A DNA stretch of 64,000 nt from Alphaproteobacteria bacterium. Lineage in GTDB: Bacteria; Pseudomonadota; Alphaproteobacteria; Caulobacterales; Hyphomonadaceae. Positions 1,670-42,563 of the stretch are shown one piece after another. The notes beneath the pieces are model-generated. The model did no database searches. It was not told the DNA's origin and worked only from the letters and a program-made list of their open reading frames with translations. Each line of letters opens with the position of its first letter. Position 1 is the first letter of the stretch. The stretch lies in NCBI GenBank assembly GCA_018222605.1, contig JAAEZZ010000005.1:124001-188000 (forward strand), written 5' to 3'. Position numbers and translations under genes: made by a program.

Positions 1670-2455
1670 TCAGAATTTGGAATACGCCCCATCAATCAGC
1701 AGCGTGTCGCCGGAATGGAACTTCGATGCGTCCGAGGCGAGATAAACCGCAATGCCGCCAAAATCCTCCGGCTCACCCCAGCGCCGGATCGGGACGCGGG
1801 AGATGACCTTGCTGTTGAACACGTCGCTGCCTTGGCCGCCCTCGGTCATGTCGGTCGCGATCCAGCCGGGCAGAACAGAGTTCGCGCGGATTTTGTAGCG
1901 GCCATACTCGACTGCGATGGCGTTCATCATGGCGATCAGGCCGCCCTTGGTATGGCCATAAGCCTGGTTGCGCGCTGCACCTGACAGGGCCGCCAAAGAG
2001 GCTGTGCCGACCAGGCTGCCACCCGGATCACCCGCCTTGGCGCGCTTGACCATGGATTTGGCCGCCTCACGCAGCGTGAGGAAGGCGCCTTCGGAGTTGA
2101 TGCGCTGATTGAAGCGCCAGGTTTCGAGCGACATTTCTTCAAAGGAAGACGCGCCCCGGCCAACGCCTGCATTGGCGATACAGGTGTCGATACGGCCGAA
2201 TTCTTCTTCACTCTCTGCCATCGCCTTGATGACAGCGTCCTCGTCGGCCACATCGACCTGCCACGCTTTTGCCCGGCCGGTACCCAGGCCTTCCAGCTTT
2301 TTGACGGCGGCGTCATTGTCTTCTGCCTTACGGCCCCAGATGACGACATTGGCATTGGAAGCTGCGAGCGCTTCGGCCATACCCAGGCCAATGCCCTTGT
2401 TGCCGCCGGTCACGACGCAGACTTTGCCAGTCAGGTTGAAGGGGGCGTAAGTCAT
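1670..2455 (-). CDS. SDR-family NAD(P)-dependent oxidoreductase
   Basis: The 261-residue length is typical of a classical short-chain dehydrogenase. The Rossmann motif TGGNKGIG lies near residues 17-24, the NAG motif is in IANAGVG near residue 94, the catalytic Ser is in GTASLAALSG and the Tyr-x-x-x-Lys pair is in YGHTKGG. The C-terminal LPGWIATDMT and GDTLLIDGAYSKF segments are also typical of the family. SDRs reduce or oxidise alcohol, ketone or sugar groups, and the substrate cannot be read from sequence. It is the downstream member of a minus-strand set with the Nudix and glycosyltransferase genes, but a 63-bp gap separates it from them, so co-transcription is uncertain. Confidence 0.93.
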   Translation of the reverse strand: MTYAPFNLTGKVCVVTGGNKGIGLGMAEALAASNANVVIWGRKAEDNDAAVKKLEGLGTGRAKAWQVDVADEDAVIKAMAESEEEFGRIDTCIANAGVGRGASSFEEMSLETWRFNQRINSEGAFLTLREAAKSMVKRAKAGDPGGSLVGTASLAALSGAARNQAYGHTKGGLIAMMNAIAVEYGRYKIRANSVLPGWIATDMTEGGQGSDVFNSKVISRVPIRRWGEPEDFGGIAVYLASDASKFHSGDTLLIDGAYSKF

Positions 2456-2518
2456 ATGGGTCTCCTCAGATTGTCATTTTTGGTTTTGACGCACTTCAGA
2501 GGTATGACGTAAGGGCGG

Positions 2519-2968
2519 TCAAGCCCCAGCCGGATCCAGAACGATTTTCCGTGCCGCTTCTATGATGCGCCGTGTCTCGTCCCATAGCCGCAGGCTGGCG
2601 AGCTTCTCCGGGCTGATCCATTCGGCATGGGCAGCATCGTCACCCGCGCACGGTTCTCCGGCGGTCCAAATGGCGGCATAGTCGAACAAGACATAATGCC
2701 GGGTCACATCGCCGGAGGTGCGGGAATGGAATATGCCGTCCACCACATCGACCAGCCCGGCAATTCTGGCCTCGACGCAGGTTTCCTCGTGCAGCTCTCG
2801 CAAGGCGGCGTCTGCGGACCGCTCGCCGGGTTCGATTCGTCCGCCTGGCAGTGACCAGTCTCCCTTCAGGGGTTTGGTTCCTCTCTGGATCAGCAGGACA
2901 TCCTCGCCCTTGAAGCAGACAGTGCCGACCGCGGGCACAGGTTCTCTGGCTTCGCGTCCAAAGCTCAT
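2519..2968 (-). CDS. Nudix hydrolase
   Basis: The product has 149 residues. The Nudix box is GRIEPGERSADAALRELHEE, matching G-x5-E-x7-R-E-U-x-E-E, near residues 43-62. The Gly usually found two residues after the box is Cys here, a tolerated variation. The family cleaves nucleoside diphosphates linked to another group; its closest functional class (ADP-ribose pyrophosphatase or MutT-like) is not resolved. Its ATG overlaps the TGA of the upstream glycosyltransferase gene by one base (TGATG), which implies translational coupling. Confidence 0.92.
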   Translation of the reverse strand: MSFGREAREPVPAVGTVCFKGEDVLLIQRGTKPLKGDWSLPGGRIEPGERSADAALRELHEETCVEARIAGLVDVVDGIFHSRTSGDVTRHYVLFDYAAIWTAGEPCAGDDAAHAEWISPEKLASLRLWDETRRIIEAARKIVLDPAGA

Positions 2969-6268: not shown

Positions 6269-6328
6269 GCATTATTACTCGTTCTGTCGTGCGCAGTGCG
6301 ACGATCAGAGAACAAGATGAAGGGGCAC

Positions 6329-8059
6329 ATGGCGGAGCCGGTACACGACATACTGATCAAGGATACGCTGGTCTTCCTGTTTGCGGCGGGCGTTGTCGTT
6401 CCGGTTTTTCGGTATTTGAAATTGCCTGCGGTGGTCGGCTTCATGTTGGCCGGTATCGCGCTGGGGCCCTACGCACTTGGCTCCCTGACAGGGGAGTATC
6501 ATTGGCTGGAATATGTCTCGATCTCGGAACCTGCCGCTGCGGCCCCCTTTGCGGAACTCGGCGTACTGTTCCTGCTATTCCTGCTGGGATTGGAATTCTC
6601 GTTTGAGAAACTCTGGGGGTTGAAGCGCGCCGTGTTCGGGGCGGGCGGCCTGCAGGCCGGCCTCAGTGCGCTCGCCATTGGCGGCGTAGCCTGGCTGATT
6701 GGTCTGCCGCCAGCCGCTGCCATAATCTGCGGCCTCGCACTCGCCCTGTCCTCCACCGCCATCGTGATGCAGCTGCTGATCGAGCAGAAGCAGGCGACCC
6801 AGCCTGTCGGCCGTGCAGCGCTCAGCGTCTTGCTGTTTCAGGACATTCTCGTTGCGCCGATCCTGATCTTTGTGGGCTTTGTGAACCTTGACGCTGGCGC
6901 CAACATCACAGGGGTCCTGCTGGAAGCCCTGTTCAACGGTGTCGTGGCCATTCTGGTCATTCTGGTGATCGGGCGCTTCGGCTTGCGCCGCATGTTCCGT
7001 CTCGCTGCGTCGGCTGGCGGGCGAGACTTCCTGATGGCGCTGACGCTGCTGACCGTGGTCGGCGCGGCGGCCATCACCGCAAGCGCGGGGCTGTCGCTCG
7101 CGCTGGGGGCTTTCCTGGCCGGCCTTCTGCTGGGCGAGACCGAGTTCAAGCATCAGACCGAAGTGGACCTTGAGCCCTTCAAGGGCATCTTGCTCGGCCT
7201 GTTCTTCATGACCGTGGGCATGAGTCTGGATTTGCCCTCCATCATGTCACAGCCCTTGGTCATTCTCGGCGGACTGGCGGCACTGTTGGTGGCGAAGCTG
7301 GTGATTGGCTTTGTAGCGCTGCGCTTCTTTGCCGGGCCTACGCCTATGTCTATTGAGGCGGCTTTCCTGCTCGCACCAGCCGGGGAATTTGCCTTCGTCG
7401 TCATCACTGCGGCCACCGCTATTGGCGCGCTTCCGGCTGAGCCTGCAGGCCTCATGGCGGCGATTGCAGGCCTCTCCATGCTGCTGATCCCGGTGCTGGG
7501 CAAGGCGGGCAGCCTGATAGCTGGCCGCCTGCGCGGCGCGGAACCTGCGCATGTGCTGGAAGAGGATTTCTCGGAGCTTGAGGGACACGTCATCATTGCC
7601 GGCTTTGGCCGGGTCGGGCAGGCGGTCGCGCGCATCATTGGTGCCGAAGAGGCGGAGATCGTCGCGCTGGAGCGCAGCGCCTATAATGTTGCACGGGCCC
7701 GGGATGCAGGCTGGCGGGCTTTCCTGGGGGATGCTGCCCGCCCCGAAATCCTGCACAGTGCCGGGGCTGATGGGGCCAGCCTGTTCGTGGTCACGGTGGA
7801 TGACGTCAATGATGCCGAGGCGATGGTGAGAGCCTTCCACCAGCTGCGCCCGGAAGTGCCGATCATTGCCCGCGCACGAGACCGGGAACACGCCGCTCGC
7901 CTGCAGGAGGCCGGCGCGCGCGACGTGATCCCGGATGCCATCGAGTCCGGCCTGCAAATGGCTGGCCGGACGCTGCATCAGTTTGGCTATGATGAGGAAA
8001 CTGTACGCGACCGCCTGGCGGCCGAGCGCGACGAGGAATATCGCCGCGCCTCGACCTGA
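6329..8059 (+). CDS. CPA2 cation:proton antiporter with TrkA-N (RCK) domain, KefB/KefC type
   Basis: The product has 576 residues. Residues about 10-395 hold 12-13 hydrophobic helices of the Na+/H+ exchanger fold, with the conserved FLLGLEFSF and LLGETEFKHQ segments. Residues about 410-540 are an RCK_N nucleotide-binding domain with GFGRVGQAVARI. Such proteins exchange K+ (or Na+) for protons across the inner membrane and are gated by nucleotide or glutathione binding. Possible starts are GTG 6296, ATG 6317 and ATG 6329. AAGGGG just before 6329 made me choose it, but the spacing is short and the choice is uncertain. No kefF/kefG-like ancillary gene is adjacent. Confidence 0.92.
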   Translation: MAEPVHDILIKDTLVFLFAAGVVVPVFRYLKLPAVVGFMLAGIALGPYALGSLTGEYHWLEYVSISEPAAAAPFAELGVLFLLFLLGLEFSFEKLWGLKRAVFGAGGLQAGLSALAIGGVAWLIGLPPAAAIICGLALALSSTAIVMQLLIEQKQATQPVGRAALSVLLFQDILVAPILIFVGFVNLDAGANITGVLLEALFNGVVAILVILVIGRFGLRRMFRLAASAGGRDFLMALTLLTVVGAAAITASAGLSLALGAFLAGLLLGETEFKHQTEVDLEPFKGILLGLFFMTVGMSLDLPSIMSQPLVILGGLAALLVAKLVIGFVALRFFAGPTPMSIEAAFLLAPAGEFAFVVITAATAIGALPAEPAGLMAAIAGLSMLLIPVLGKAGSLIAGRLRGAEPAHVLEEDFSELEGHVIIAGFGRVGQAVARIIGAEEAEIVALERSAYNVARARDAGWRAFLGDAARPEILHSAGADGASLFVVTVDDVNDAEAMVRAFHQLRPEVPIIARARDREHAARLQEAGARDVIPDAIESGLQMAGRTLHQFGYDEETVRDRLAAERDEEYRRAST

Positions 8060-8062
8060 GAC

Positions 8063-8638
8063 TTATCCGATCCAGCGCGCCGTCTGCGCTAGCAGCCACA
8101 GGCCGATGATCAGGAACAGCAGCGCTGCAATCATGCGCACAACATTTAGCGGCACACGCTTGATCAGTTCATGCCCGAGGAACACGGCCGGCACATTGGC
8201 CAGCATCATGCCGAGCGTCGTGCCCATCGTGACGTAGAAGATATTCTCGAACTGCGCACCCAGCGCCACGGTCGCGATCTGTGTCTTGTCGCCCATCTCG
8301 ACCAGGAAGAACGCAATTGTCGTCGTCAGGAATGCCCCGAACCGAGCCGGTTTGCTCTCCATGTCATCGTCCAGCTTGTCCGGGATCAGCGTCCAGGCCG
8401 CCATGGCGATGAATGAGATGGCCACGATGTAGCGGAACCATTGCCCATCGAGGATGGATGCAACCTGAGACCCGACCAGAGCCGCCAGAAAGTGATTGGC
8501 CACAGTCGCGACAAAGATGCCGAGAATGATGGGAACCGGCCTGCGGAATTGCGTCGCCAAGACGATGGCCAGCAATTGCGTCTTGTCGCCAATTTCGGCG
8601 AGCGTGACCACGGCAGTGGAGGTGAAAAAGGCTTCCAT
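8063..8638 (-). CDS. TMEM165/GDT1-family (UPF0016) manganese exporter
   Basis: The product has 191 residues, about six membrane helices, and two copies of the family's E-x-G-D-K/R-T motif: EIGDKTQLLA near residue 15 and EMGDKTQIAT near residue 115. The two halves form the inverted repeat typical of the family. Members export Mn2+ (MneA/MntX-like) or Ca2+/Mn2+ across the membrane, and the yybP-ykoY riboswitch directly upstream supports a role in Mn2+ efflux. The start at 8638 follows AGGAG with a 10-nt spacer; this ribosome-binding site can be buried in a long hairpin (see regulatory features). Confidence 0.94.
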   Translation of the reverse strand: MEAFFTSTAVVTLAEIGDKTQLLAIVLATQFRRPVPIILGIFVATVANHFLAALVGSQVASILDGQWFRYIVAISFIAMAAWTLIPDKLDDDMESKPARFGAFLTTTIAFFLVEMGDKTQIATVALGAQFENIFYVTMGTTLGMMLANVPAVFLGHELIKRVPLNVVRMIAALLFLIIGLWLLAQTARWIG

Positions 8639-8653
8639 ATGAACAAGTCTCCT

Positions 8654-8724
8654 GGCCGGGCAATTCTTGACGCAATGACACCTTCATCCCGTGCCCGGCC
8701 ATGAGCAGGAATGCGGTGTCATTG
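8654..8724 (-). promoter_or_regulatory. Expression platform of the Mn riboswitch: two interleaved hairpins
   Basis: In the mRNA sense the order is arm A (8724-8715), arm B (8700-8692), arm A' (8682-8673), arm B' (8662-8654), then the AGGAG ribosome-binding site. A and A' are a perfect 10-bp inverted repeat, B and B' a perfect 9-bp one. B/B' extends with one mismatch to 14 positions and then pairs CTC with the GAG of the Shine-Dalgarno sequence. The two hairpins cannot both form as simple stems. No U-run follows, so control of translation is more likely than termination. Confidence 0.7.
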
Positions 8725-8830
8725 GTCTCGCCCGAGCGGTTGCCCGCTCCCTTCGCGCCACGGTCTGCTGACCGAGTATGTTGACACGGAGGCCCGGTCT
8801 GTCGACCGACTGGCTACTCCCCAAGTGACG
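8716..8830 (-). promoter_or_regulatory. yybP-ykoY manganese riboswitch aptamer
   Basis: On the minus strand the conserved elements occur in order: TTGGGGAGTAGCC (8824-8812), GTCGACAGACCGGGCC, GTCAACATACTCG (about 8784-8772) and GGGCGAGACC (about 8733-8724). The closing helix P1 can be formed by GTCACTTGG (about 8829-8821) with CCAATGAC (about 8725-8718), with one bulged C. It lies between the lysR stop and the exporter gene. The family binds Mn2+ and usually turns on efflux genes. Confidence 0.93.
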
Positions 8831-8851
8831 GCCCCTCCTAGTGGGATCGTT

Positions 8852-9763
8852 TCAGCTTTGCAAGTCGGGATCGATTTCGGTGACGATTTTCCGGATCAGG
8901 CCGCGTAGCCAGGTCAGCGCCGGGTCCTCGGAATTCTCCCGCCGCCAGTAAAGCTCGCTGTCGAGAGCCGGAAACACATCCGGCAGGTCGAGACGCACGA
9001 GCCCATGGGTAGGGACAAGCGACGCCGGAACGGTCAGGGCCAGATCGGTCTGGCGCACGATTTCCAGCGCAGGCATGTAATGCGGCAGGCGCATGACTGG
9101 AGTGATGCGTTGCCCTTGGCTGCGGGCAACCTCCTCGACATAGGAGCGGCCCTCGCGGCGGCTGGAGACCACGATGTGGCGTAGGGTGACAAAGTCTTCC
9201 ATCGACAGTTCGCGCCCTGCCAGCGGGTGGTTCTCGGCAACAACGCAAACATAGGGCGTCGTCATCAGCGGCTCGCGCTCCAGATCGGTGCCGCGAATTC
9301 CCGGTACGTCCACGGCCAGATCCAGGCGGCCTGAGGCCAGTTCACCTGAAATGGCTCCCCGGTTCAGCTGGCTCCACGCGATGCGCACGCCCGGCGCTTG
9401 ATGCTGCAGATGGCGCGCAAGACGCGGCGCGATCATGTAGGCACCAGCATCGCGGGCAGAGATGTTGAAGACGCGGGTAGAGCGGGAGGCCTCAAACGCA
9501 GAGCGGGGCTCCAGTCCCGCACGCAGTCGGTCCAGCGCGTCGCGCACCGTCGGCATCAGGGCTTCCGCCATGGCGGTGGGTTTCACGCCGCGCCCCTCAC
9601 GCACGAATAGCGGGTCCTCGAAATGGGCGCGCAGCCGCGCCAGCGCATTGCTGACGGCTGGCTGGGTAATATGCAGCGTTTCGCTGGCCCGCGTCAGGCT
9701 GCGCTCGGCATAGACTGCTTCCAATACGGGCAACAGGTTCAGGTCCAGCGATCTCAGATTCAT
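8852..9763 (-). CDS. LysR-family transcriptional regulator
   Basis: The product has 303 residues. Residues 1-65 are the winged HTH of LysR regulators (LDLNLLPVLEAVYAERSLTR, then TQPAVSNALARLR and PLFVREGRG). The rest is a periplasmic-binding-protein-like effector domain. The NLLPVLEAVY start is typical of the NodD/LeuO/PcaQ side of the family. The effector is unknown. A 9-bp-arm palindrome just upstream (9775-9797) probably serves autoregulation. The nearest gene beyond it, the TSUP transporter, is on the same strand and upstream, so no divergent target is visible. Confidence 0.93.
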   Translation of the reverse strand: MNLRSLDLNLLPVLEAVYAERSLTRASETLHITQPAVSNALARLRAHFEDPLFVREGRGVKPTAMAEALMPTVRDALDRLRAGLEPRSAFEASRSTRVFNISARDAGAYMIAPRLARHLQHQAPGVRIAWSQLNRGAISGELASGRLDLAVDVPGIRGTDLEREPLMTTPYVCVVAENHPLAGRELSMEDFVTLRHIVVSSRREGRSYVEEVARSQGQRITPVMRLPHYMPALEIVRQTDLALTVPASLVPTHGLVRLDLPDVFPALDSELYWRRENSEDPALTWLRGLIRKIVTEIDPDLQS

Positions 9764-9918: not shown

Positions 9919-10665
9919 CTAAAGCCAGCCGGCAGCCTTTATGAACATCACGATGCCGACCGCCGTCACCAGATACTTCATGCCGCGCTTGAAGTTCACA
10001 TCGCTCATCCGGTCCAGCACCTTGCCGCCCAGCGTCGTGCCCAGCATGGACAACGGCGCCGCCAGCAGGATCAGCCAGGCCGGCGGCAGTGCCTCCACAC
10101 CTGCGGCCATCAGCACCGGCACGCTCCAGAAGATGATCTTCACGAAGTGCGCCAGCACCTGCGTCACGGCCTTCGTGGCGACAATCTCGTGGCGCGTCAG
10201 ATCTGTACGCACGAAGAACTGGTCCAACAGCGGACCCGCCACACCGGCCACCGTGTTCAGCGCCTGCACGACAAAGCCCGCGCCTTCGGCCTGGAACGGC
10301 TTCTGAATGTCCAGATCAGCCACACGCTTCGGCAGCCACACCAGCAGGGTAACAAGGCCCAGCATCAGATAAACCATCTGCTTGTCGGGTCGCCAGCTGA
10401 GCGCGAAGAGCAGCAATATGGCCGTAGCAGAGCCGAGCGCATAGCGGCGGAAGATCGTCCAGTTGATGTGCCGTCGCCACAAAAAGGCGCGATAGCCATT
10501 CGAGACCATCTGTACGGCGCCGTGGATCATCATGGCCATGGCAACCGGCACCAGGGAGGTCAGCACGCCCATGAAGATGATGCCGCCCGCCATGCCGAAT
10601 ATGCCCGATATGAAGCTCGTGATGAGCACCGTGACAAGAATGATGACAGCAGCGACTGGACCCAT
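9919..10665 (-). CDS. TSUP-family (TauE/SafE) permease
   Basis: The product has 248 residues and about eight hydrophobic helices in two related halves. The first repeat has the SGIFGMAGGIIFMGVL segment and the second GTTLGGKVLDRMSD, both typical of TauE/SafE proteins. The family exports sulfite, sulfoacetate and other organic anions, but the substrate is not evident here. No sulfur gene is adjacent. It is upstream of lysR on the same strand with a 155-bp gap that contains the LysR palindrome, so it is probably a separate unit. Confidence 0.9.
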   Translation of the reverse strand: MGPVAAVIILVTVLITSFISGIFGMAGGIIFMGVLTSLVPVAMAMMIHGAVQMVSNGYRAFLWRRHINWTIFRRYALGSATAILLLFALSWRPDKQMVYLMLGLVTLLVWLPKRVADLDIQKPFQAEGAGFVVQALNTVAGVAGPLLDQFFVRTDLTRHEIVATKAVTQVLAHFVKIIFWSVPVLMAAGVEALPPAWLILLAAPLSMLGTTLGGKVLDRMSDVNFKRGMKYLVTAVGIVMFIKAAGWL

Positions 10666-27810: not shown

Positions 27811-27838
27811 TTGACTTGAGCCACGGGGCGCTTATGTA
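27811..27838 (+). promoter_or_regulatory. Probable metA promoter
   Basis: TTGACT at 27811-27816 and TATGTA at 27833-27838 with a 16-bp spacer. Transcription would start near the first base of the SAM-II aptamer. An inverted repeat CCACGGGGC / GCCCCGTGG (27821-27829 and 27841-27849) overlaps the promoter and the 5' strand of the aptamer. Confidence 0.5.
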
Positions 27839-27844
27839 AGGCCC

Positions 27845-27898
27845 CGTGGTGATTTGGTCGGTCGGCTTGCAGCCACGTTAAATAAGTTGCTAAAAGGC
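27845..27898 (+). promoter_or_regulatory. SAM-II riboswitch
   Basis: The conserved SAM-II sequence is readable: CGTGGTGATTTGG, GGCTTGCAGCCACG and AAGTTGCTAAAA, with P1 CGTGG/CCACG and the pseudoknot partner near the 3' end. It sits 70 bp before the metA start, where this S-adenosylmethionine sensor is usual in alphaproteobacteria, and should lower expression when SAM is high. Confidence 0.93.
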
Positions 27899-27967
27899 TG
27901 CGCGGTTACTCCGAACACCCTGTTGGCAAGCCTAATGTCGGCCAGAAATGTTCGTGGAGTCTTGCTT

Positions 27968-42278: not shown

Positions 42279-42375
42279 TGCCCATCGGGCTGGCAGGTGG
42301 CAGTTTACGACAGATATTTGGCGAAGACGCGCTTGCTGATGTCAGGAATCCGCGCTAACCGAAGCGCAGAGTAAG

Positions 42376-42563
42376 CTTCCTCCCGGGAGAGAGCGGGTAT
42401 CAAGTCCCGCCGCCGAAGGCGCAACCGCCCCGGAAACGCTCAGGCAAAAGGGCCGGGAGAGAAGGAAACACGCTGGAAAGAGACGGGCGAGAAGCGCCGT
42501 CTCGCCGAAGGAGCAAGCCCGTATACCGGGCGGAATCTCTCAGGCGCCCAAGACAGCGGGGGC
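42376..42563 (+). promoter_or_regulatory. Tandem glycine riboswitch
   Basis: Two consecutive aptamers: the first about 42376-42460 with CCCGGGAGAGAGCGGG, GCCGCCGAAGGCGCAA and CGCTCAGGCAAAAG; the second about 42470-42563 with GCTGGAAAGAGACGGG, TCTCGCCGAAGGAGCAA and ATCTCTCAGGCGCCCAAG. The paired arms of each stem are readable. They lie 50 bp before gcvT, where glycine usually turns on the cleavage operon. Confidence 0.96.

Follow-up and report, generated by a model that had tools for sequence, protein, structure and literature searches.

The window analysed here, a 64,000-nucleotide stretch of a Hyphomonas genome, carries at 8063 to 8638 on its minus strand a gene for a 191-residue cation antiporter of the GDT1 (TMEM165/UPF0016, MneA-type) family. 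The translation matches PF01169 with 154 bits and holds both E-x-G-D-K-T motifs (EIGDKT and EMGDKT, within AEIGDKTQ and VEMGDKTQ), its closest named relative is a Hyphomonas pacifica protein with 99% identity, and the product is most likely a Mn exporter. The start codon lies at 8636 to 8638 on the minus strand, and the leader in front of it, in the region of 8654 to 8835 on the same strand, is very probably, to judge by its letters, a yybP-ykoY (RF00080) manganese riboswitch. Upstream of the leader there is a LysR-type gene with its stop at 8852, which has in turn a TauE/SafE permease gene upstream of it on the same strand (9919 to 10665). A Na/H exchanger gene with a TrkA_N domain (6296 to 8059, plus strand) stands tail to tail with the GDT1 gene, with 3 bases between the ends. 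Elsewhere in the window are a SAM_alpha riboswitch (27836 to 27913, plus strand, 74 bits) and a glycine riboswitch aptamer (42374 to 42465, plus strand, 68.2 bits).

In a search of 501 bases, the RF00080 covariance model matches positions 8654 to 8824 of the minus strand with 40.3 bits (E 1.5e-9). This falls short of the gathering score of 45, and a search of the whole window at that score did not return the leader aptamer among its matches. It is the sole RF00080 match found in the whole genome. Orthologous leaders do score above the gathering value (47.8 bits in G044 and 46.8 in G038, the closest orthologues, and 56.2 in G067), and the first-pass annotation, which had called a yybP-ykoY aptamer of the Mn type, is borne out on this point. 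The conserved cores of L1, GGGGAGUAG, and of L3, CAACAUACU, are both present in the RF00080 alignment, the former within the segment GGGGAGUAGCC (8812 to 8822), which we take to be L1 and the 5' strand of P1.2, and the latter within P3/L3 (8757 to 8785). These are followed by a P4 hairpin in the minimum free energy (MFE) fold (GAGCGG GCAA CCGCUC, 8734 to 8749) and by the 3' side of P1.2/L1, GGGCGAGA (8726 to 8733), so that the closing helix P1 and the stems P2 to P4 can all be placed from the alignment and the MFE fold. The 5' strand of P1, GUCACUUGG (8821 to 8829), pairs as GUCA(C)UUGG with the 3' strand CCAAUGAC (8718 to 8725), with 7 pairs counted. In a family alignment of 36 leaders, 34 from the same genus and two (L007 and L036) from the same family, the L1 motif is invariant, and P1 is conserved rather than proven by covariation, with 89.7% of its cells paired and no double changes. 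The leader would be expected to bind Mn2+.

The messenger RNA probably starts close to the aptamer itself. A -35-like element, CTTGCA (8859 to 8864, minus strand), is followed after 16 nt by a -10-like ACTAGG (8837 to 8842, minus strand). Among the 36 family leaders, CTTGC recurs at this position in 28 and TTG in 35, and CTAA- or CTAG-like letters stand 16 nt past CTTGC in these leaders (relatives read TCTAAC, GATAAT and GCTAAT at the -10 position), giving a pattern of CTTGC-n16-NNTAA/G that corresponds to 8837 to 8864 of the minus strand in the window. Because the position of CTTGC is conserved and these letters follow it, we place the likely transcription start near 8830 on the minus strand, at the 5' strand of P1. 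A promoter scan with an E. coli-type model matched no promoter at CTTGCA/ACTAGG. The promoter-like letters run into the end of the LysR gene upstream.

Between the aptamer and the start codon the leader holds four arms in the order A-B-A'-B', all on the minus strand and where the first-pass annotation had put them. Arm A, CAAUGACACC (8715 to 8724), pairs over 10 of 10 positions with A', GGUGUCAUUG (8673 to 8682), and arm B, GGCCGGGCA (8692 to 8700), over 9 of 9 with B', UGCCCGGCC (8654 to 8662); with the 5' extension of B, CUCAU (8701 to 8705), which reaches the GAG of the Shine-Dalgarno (SD) sequence, the second helix has 13 of 14 pairs. Arm A shares bases with the P1 3' strand and is thus common to P1 and to A/A', and A' resembles the 5' strand of P1. 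The SD itself, AGGAG (8649 to 8653), lies 10 nt before the AUG and just beyond the limit of 8654 that had been given for the element; pairing of the extension with it, also claimed at first, stands as a partial overlap, but the extension is weak.

That these arms are merely the chance complementarity of a GC-rich leader is barely credible. The arms are indeed GC-rich, and arms swapped between species still pair, with means of -12.5 and -21.5 kcal/mol for A and B. Against this, the leader as a whole folds at -98.1 kcal/mol (z -4.09), a value that none of 200 shuffles reached, and the covariation of the arms among Hyphomonadaceae homologues, proposed as a check in the first-pass annotation, was found for both helices in the 36 leaders. 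For A/A', 92.5% of the cells are paired compared with at most 62% when the strands are slid, and 16 cells are double-changed compared with 6.2 in shuffles (0 of 500 as many); the count of 4 pairs with double changes was reached by 51 of 500 shuffles and that of further pair types by 61. For B/B' with its SD extension, 93.5% of the cells are paired and 22 are double-changed compared with 4.4 in shuffles (0 of 500), the 5 pairs with double changes being reached by 22 of 500 shuffles and the 11 further pair types by 416, in shuffles that, as for A/A', do not keep the relatedness of the leaders. Within the extension, 14 of the 36 leaders lack the UA pair at alignment columns 138/197.

A wider sample gave the same picture. 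From 143 leaders (of Hyphomonas, Caulobacter, sphingomonads, Betaproteobacteria and others, including three mis-anchored ones, L015, L092 and L141) we retained 79, one of them the mis-anchored L141, so that relatedness is thinned rather than modelled, and compared the pairing of each arm with its own partner and with partners swapped between leaders. Arm A was paired with the whole downstream region, since an A' picked with its own A would bias the choice. With its own downstream region A reached -17.7 compared with -12.5 kcal/mol when swapped (z -17.1), and the B region reached -25.9 with its own B' compared with -21.5 kcal/mol (z -11.8), whereas the SD window gained far less from its own middle region (-14.4 compared with -13.1, z -4.8); in all three cases 0 of 10,000 permutations were as low. 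In letter shuffles the native value lay under the shuffle mean in 77 of the 79 leaders for A and in 73 for B, with median z values of -2.1 for A, -2.0 for B and -0.8 for the SD, and of -3.0, -3.7 and -0.2 in the window leader (-0.22 for its SD to the second decimal). On these results A/A' and B/B' are secure and the SD pairing is weak.

The arms also emerged from an unguided RNAalifold consensus of 32 of the 36 family leaders, from which L013 and L015 were excluded as mis-anchored and L027 and L028 as repeats. This consensus consists of A/A' and two further helices, C and E, with 6 of its 19 pairs changed on both sides. Helix E joins GGGC (8730 to 8733) on the 3' side of P1.2/L1 to GCCC (8658 to 8661) within B' and forms the base of a long hairpin; all four of its pairs are invariant in the 32 leaders and so carry no covariation. 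Helix C pairs CAUUCC-UGCUC (8703 to 8713), of which the CUC also pairs with the GAG of the SD in the B/B' state, with GGGCA-C-GGGAUG (8685 to 8696), a strand that overlaps arm B and occupies half of it. Neither helix C nor the GGGC/GCCC base was part of the first-pass annotation. The MFE fold of the window leader has in addition a GAC/GUC step below A/A', which is kept, pair by pair, in 20 to 32 of the 36 leaders.

The description of A/A' and B/B' as mutually exclusive was an assumption, since an A-B-A'-B' order is also the topology of an H-type pseudoknot. Both helices might coexist without Mn and lock the SD, a lock that Mn would loosen by withdrawing A, and such an arrangement would yield a Mn-ON output. 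The linker of 10 nt between A' and B' in the window makes this possible on paper, and for 31 of 92 leaders a crude estimate puts the pseudoknot ahead of the nested metal-free fold; the median estimate, however, is 3.3 kcal/mol worse than the nested fold (with an assumed penalty of 8.1), and the pseudoknot cannot form together with the GGGC/GCCC base found in the consensus fold. In Caulobacter, where the linkers are as short as 3 nt (L149) and 5 nt (L146 and L142) and were judged too short for a stem of ∼12 bp, the pseudoknot is unlikely and exclusivity is favoured. Overall we consider the coexistence of the two helices quite improbable.

Folding energies, which are nearest-neighbor estimates without Mn, docking or pseudoknots, place the metal-free leader on the side of A/A'. 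The fold with P1 closed costs 7.3 kcal/mol in the window leader and a median of 9.4 over 91 leaders, of which 80 pay more than 3 and 4 less than 0, and a similar price is paid in the E. coli mntP leader (10.4 kcal/mol) and in that of alx (11.4 kcal/mol). In these tallies, as in that of the pseudoknot estimate above and in those of B/B' and of the segment and full-length folds given below, three leaders anchored on an earlier AGACC (L013, L015 and L092) are still counted. In a scan of the nascent window leader, P1 has an advantage of at most 2.5 kcal/mol as long as A' is not yet out; A' emerges ∼39 nt ahead of the start codon, and from there on P1 is disfavored, at first by up to 18.7 and then, once B' is out, by 6 to 8 kcal/mol. 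Because P1 is favored in the nascent RNA until A' emerges, a metal-stabilized P1 would have a window of ∼40 nt in which to win.

The kinetics and the regulatory output of the leader are inferences, and it is best explained as a switch that would work by strand exchange. Arm A, the 3' strand of P1, would pair either with the 5' strand of P1, completing the Mn site, or with the downstream look-alike A'. In the metal-free RNA, a single long hairpin (E, A/A' and C) would form, in which A' and the GCCC of B' occupy the 3' side of P1, and the aptamer would be dismantled. If Mn2+ were bound while RNA polymerase sits in the ∼40 nt between A and A', P1 would be held closed and A' excluded, leaving B free for B' or for helix C. 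How the ribosome site would then open has two candidate answers: helix C may hold B away from B' once P1 is closed, or the gene may escape Rho termination through coupling of transcription and translation.

The direction in which Mn flips this switch cannot be read from the sequence. According to the first-pass annotation, the simplest wiring would hide the ribosome-binding site when Mn is present, and folds of just the RNA after P1 agree with this: in the window leader it costs 8.5 kcal/mol to open the SD with the 8-nt P1 strand removed and 5.8 with 3 nt removed, compared with 2.9 without P1, the SD being weakly held in the metal-free fold. The difference nearly vanishes at full length (4.0 compared with 3.4 kcal/mol). 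Among 91 leaders (L001, from the same locus, L039, masked upstream, and L005, which has no aptamer, were excluded) the segment folds made SD opening dearer with P1 in 48 and cheaper in 10, or in 46 and 10 of 88 without the mis-anchored L013, L015 and L092, with medians of 5.5 and 4.7 kcal/mol compared with 4.3 without P1; L090 has no SD-like match, here and in the full-length folds. With P1 enforced in full-length folds, SD opening was higher in 31 of 90 leaders, lower in 20 and within 1 kcal/mol in 39, and in the 36 family leaders it was higher in 16 and lower in 4, although this test is lenient, as just two inner P1 pairs were enforced and A/A' could still form beyond them. Taken as a whole, the secondary structure computations lean to Mn-OFF.

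Such an output would come about if Mn closed P1 and excluded A', so that B paired with B', the extension covered the SD and GDT1 translation fell, whereas in the absence of Mn the A/A' hairpin would hold B back and leave the SD open. Besides the two sets of folds, the conservation of B/B' fits this scheme, as does its advantage over free B' once P1 is closed (a median of 12.1 kcal/mol, with a gap of at most 2 in none of 92 leaders), and swapping the middle region weakens the pairing of the SD window. Against it stand the near balance of the full-length folds and the small difference in the window leader, the weak complementarity of the SD when set against shuffles, and the wrong sign that both sets of folds yield for alx, where the SD is dearer with P1 both in segments (3.6 to 5.9 compared with 1.9 kcal/mol) and at full length (4.1 compared with 2.3). 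For E. coli mntP, in a segment calculation run separately, SD opening hardly differs between the states. As mntP and alx are both reported to be raised by Mn (PMC9603457), the SD-opening calculation is wrong for one and does not separate the states of the other, which makes it a poor guide to the sign. The apparent sign problem, moreover, is not specific to the locus in the window, because E. coli mntP shares the arm order, as do leaders of Alpha- and Betaproteobacteria.

The published relatives point the other way, and the genes concerned belong to exporter families. mntP has also been reported as Mn-ON (PMC11647493), mneA RNA of Vibrio parahaemolyticus rises ∼39-fold with Mn (PMC13274385), mneA of Vibrio cholerae is Mn-induced (PMC7380456), and so is BP3410 of Bordetella pertussis, with an aptamer mutant as the control (PMC8546581); leader sequences were compared here for mntP and alx only. 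Given that the published relatives are Mn-ON and that the folds fail to give the sign of mntP and alx, Mn-ON is kept, by analogy, as the likelier output, and Mn-OFF we regard as unlikely. We are just as doubtful of its general form, in which the Alpha- and Betaproteobacterial arrangement, with a near-copy of the P1 strand downstream, would itself set the sign and be a Mn-OFF (or a two-step, concentration-gated) exporter switch, inverted here.

An output other than SD access has also to be considered. The leader has no intrinsic terminator, as the first-pass annotation had stated: a pattern scan found 0 terminator-like sites in 8550 to 8950. A terminator at A/A' in the window is ruled out by the same scan and by the 2 U in the 9 nt after A'. 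The mean over leaders is 2.4 U in these 9 nt, with at least 5 in 12 rows out of 143; mntP and alx are among these 143 rows, of which L013, L015, L041, L055, L076, L092, L141 and L171 look mis-anchored. The main output might instead be Rho-dependent termination within the untranslated leader at low Mn, the arms setting the coupling of transcription and translation rather than SD access alone. This has been published for E. coli mntP (PMC11647493), a short leader transcript (BprK) is described without Mn in B. pertussis (PMC8546581), and the lack of an intrinsic terminator in the window leader is in keeping with it; for Hyphomonas the case is one of analogy with mntP and B. pertussis, and we hold it to be a tentative possibility, somewhat better placed than Mn-OFF. 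It is compatible with strand exchange and does not exclude it. The reading that we prefer, with a probability of about 0.7, is that of a translational, terminator-less yybP-ykoY Mn riboswitch on a GDT1-type gene, working by strand exchange and with its output taken as Mn-ON.

Judged by sequence, the leader belongs with the yybP-ykoY riboswitches on GDT1 genes and would work like them. This pairing is already known: of 333 screened strains with a UPF0016 gene, 328 are reported to have it under such a riboswitch (PMC7380456). The leader resembles RF00080 members in its GGGGAGUAG and CAACAUACU cores, its Rfam-type stems and the adjoining Mn transporter-type gene, and a Mn-stabilized switch helix, P1.1, has been described for a transcriptional yybP RNA (PMC11087558); it differs in scoring 40.3 bits, under the gathering value of 45, and in having no terminator. 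The closest parallel in arm order, by reading, is the translational leader of E. coli mntP, reported as Mn-ON, in which A, GCACAUCA, lies beside the P1 3' strand CCAUAU and is followed by B (GCUGGGG), A' (UGAUGUGU) and B' (CCCCGGU) directly before the SD; unlike in the window, B of mntP lies outside the inner hairpin and B/B' ends beside the SD. In the E. coli alx leader, too, zipping of the P1 3' strand with a sequence farther downstream is possible (AGACCUUGCC/GGCGAGGUCU), but alx has an extra SD-proximal hairpin and other downstream helices; alx is reportedly also raised by alkaline pH. The yoaB riboswitch of Lactococcus lactis, built on the same class of aptamer, is an ON switch specific for Mn (PMC9190785), for which, in contrast to the window leader with its lack of a U tract, an intrinsic terminator at low Mn has been proposed (PMC11647493). 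For the strand exchange of the Alpha- and Betaproteobacterial leaders, with A' as a mimic of P1, no description was found in the searched yybP-ykoY literature as far as its accessible text goes, and it may be known for mntP.

The element is widespread among relatives. RF00080 matches at E 0.001 or better occur in 110 of 299 genomes of the order (81 above the cut-off); within a betaproteobacterial order, 94 of the 250 genomes carry RF00080. Of 105 family genomes, 52 have a GDT1-like match, which is strong in 41 (E at most 1e-46). The aptamer motif lies at most 330 nt upstream in 58 of 80 named GDT1 loci, and by eye the A-B-A'-B' order can be made out in front of GDT1 genes in Alpha- and Betaproteobacteria. 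Similar leaders, again with the arm order read by eye, precede MntP genes (L065 and L071) and a Na/Ca exchanger-type gene (L043), B/B' being read by eye in these and A/A' computed. In L043 the exchanger-type gene (1690 to 2673, plus strand) stands behind a leader with six U after A', as if A/A' were a terminator. One GDT1 gene of the same genus (L005, in G036), 79% identical, has no aptamer upstream. The betaproteobacterial genomes G397 (L203) and G345 (L196, L201 and L202) have three RF00080 matches each, two of those in G397 being 20 kb apart with equal scores.

The useful part of these findings is an arrangement of arms, backed by covariation, that extends over Hyphomonas, Caulobacter, sphingomonads and Betaproteobacteria and the sign of which folding does not predict. 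A single strand exchange, between the 5' strand of P1 and A', should decide its state, and this makes the opening of the ribosome site in translational Mn riboswitches directly testable. Should the output prove to be Mn-OFF, a large group would no longer obey the rule that exporters are turned on by yybP-ykoY switches.
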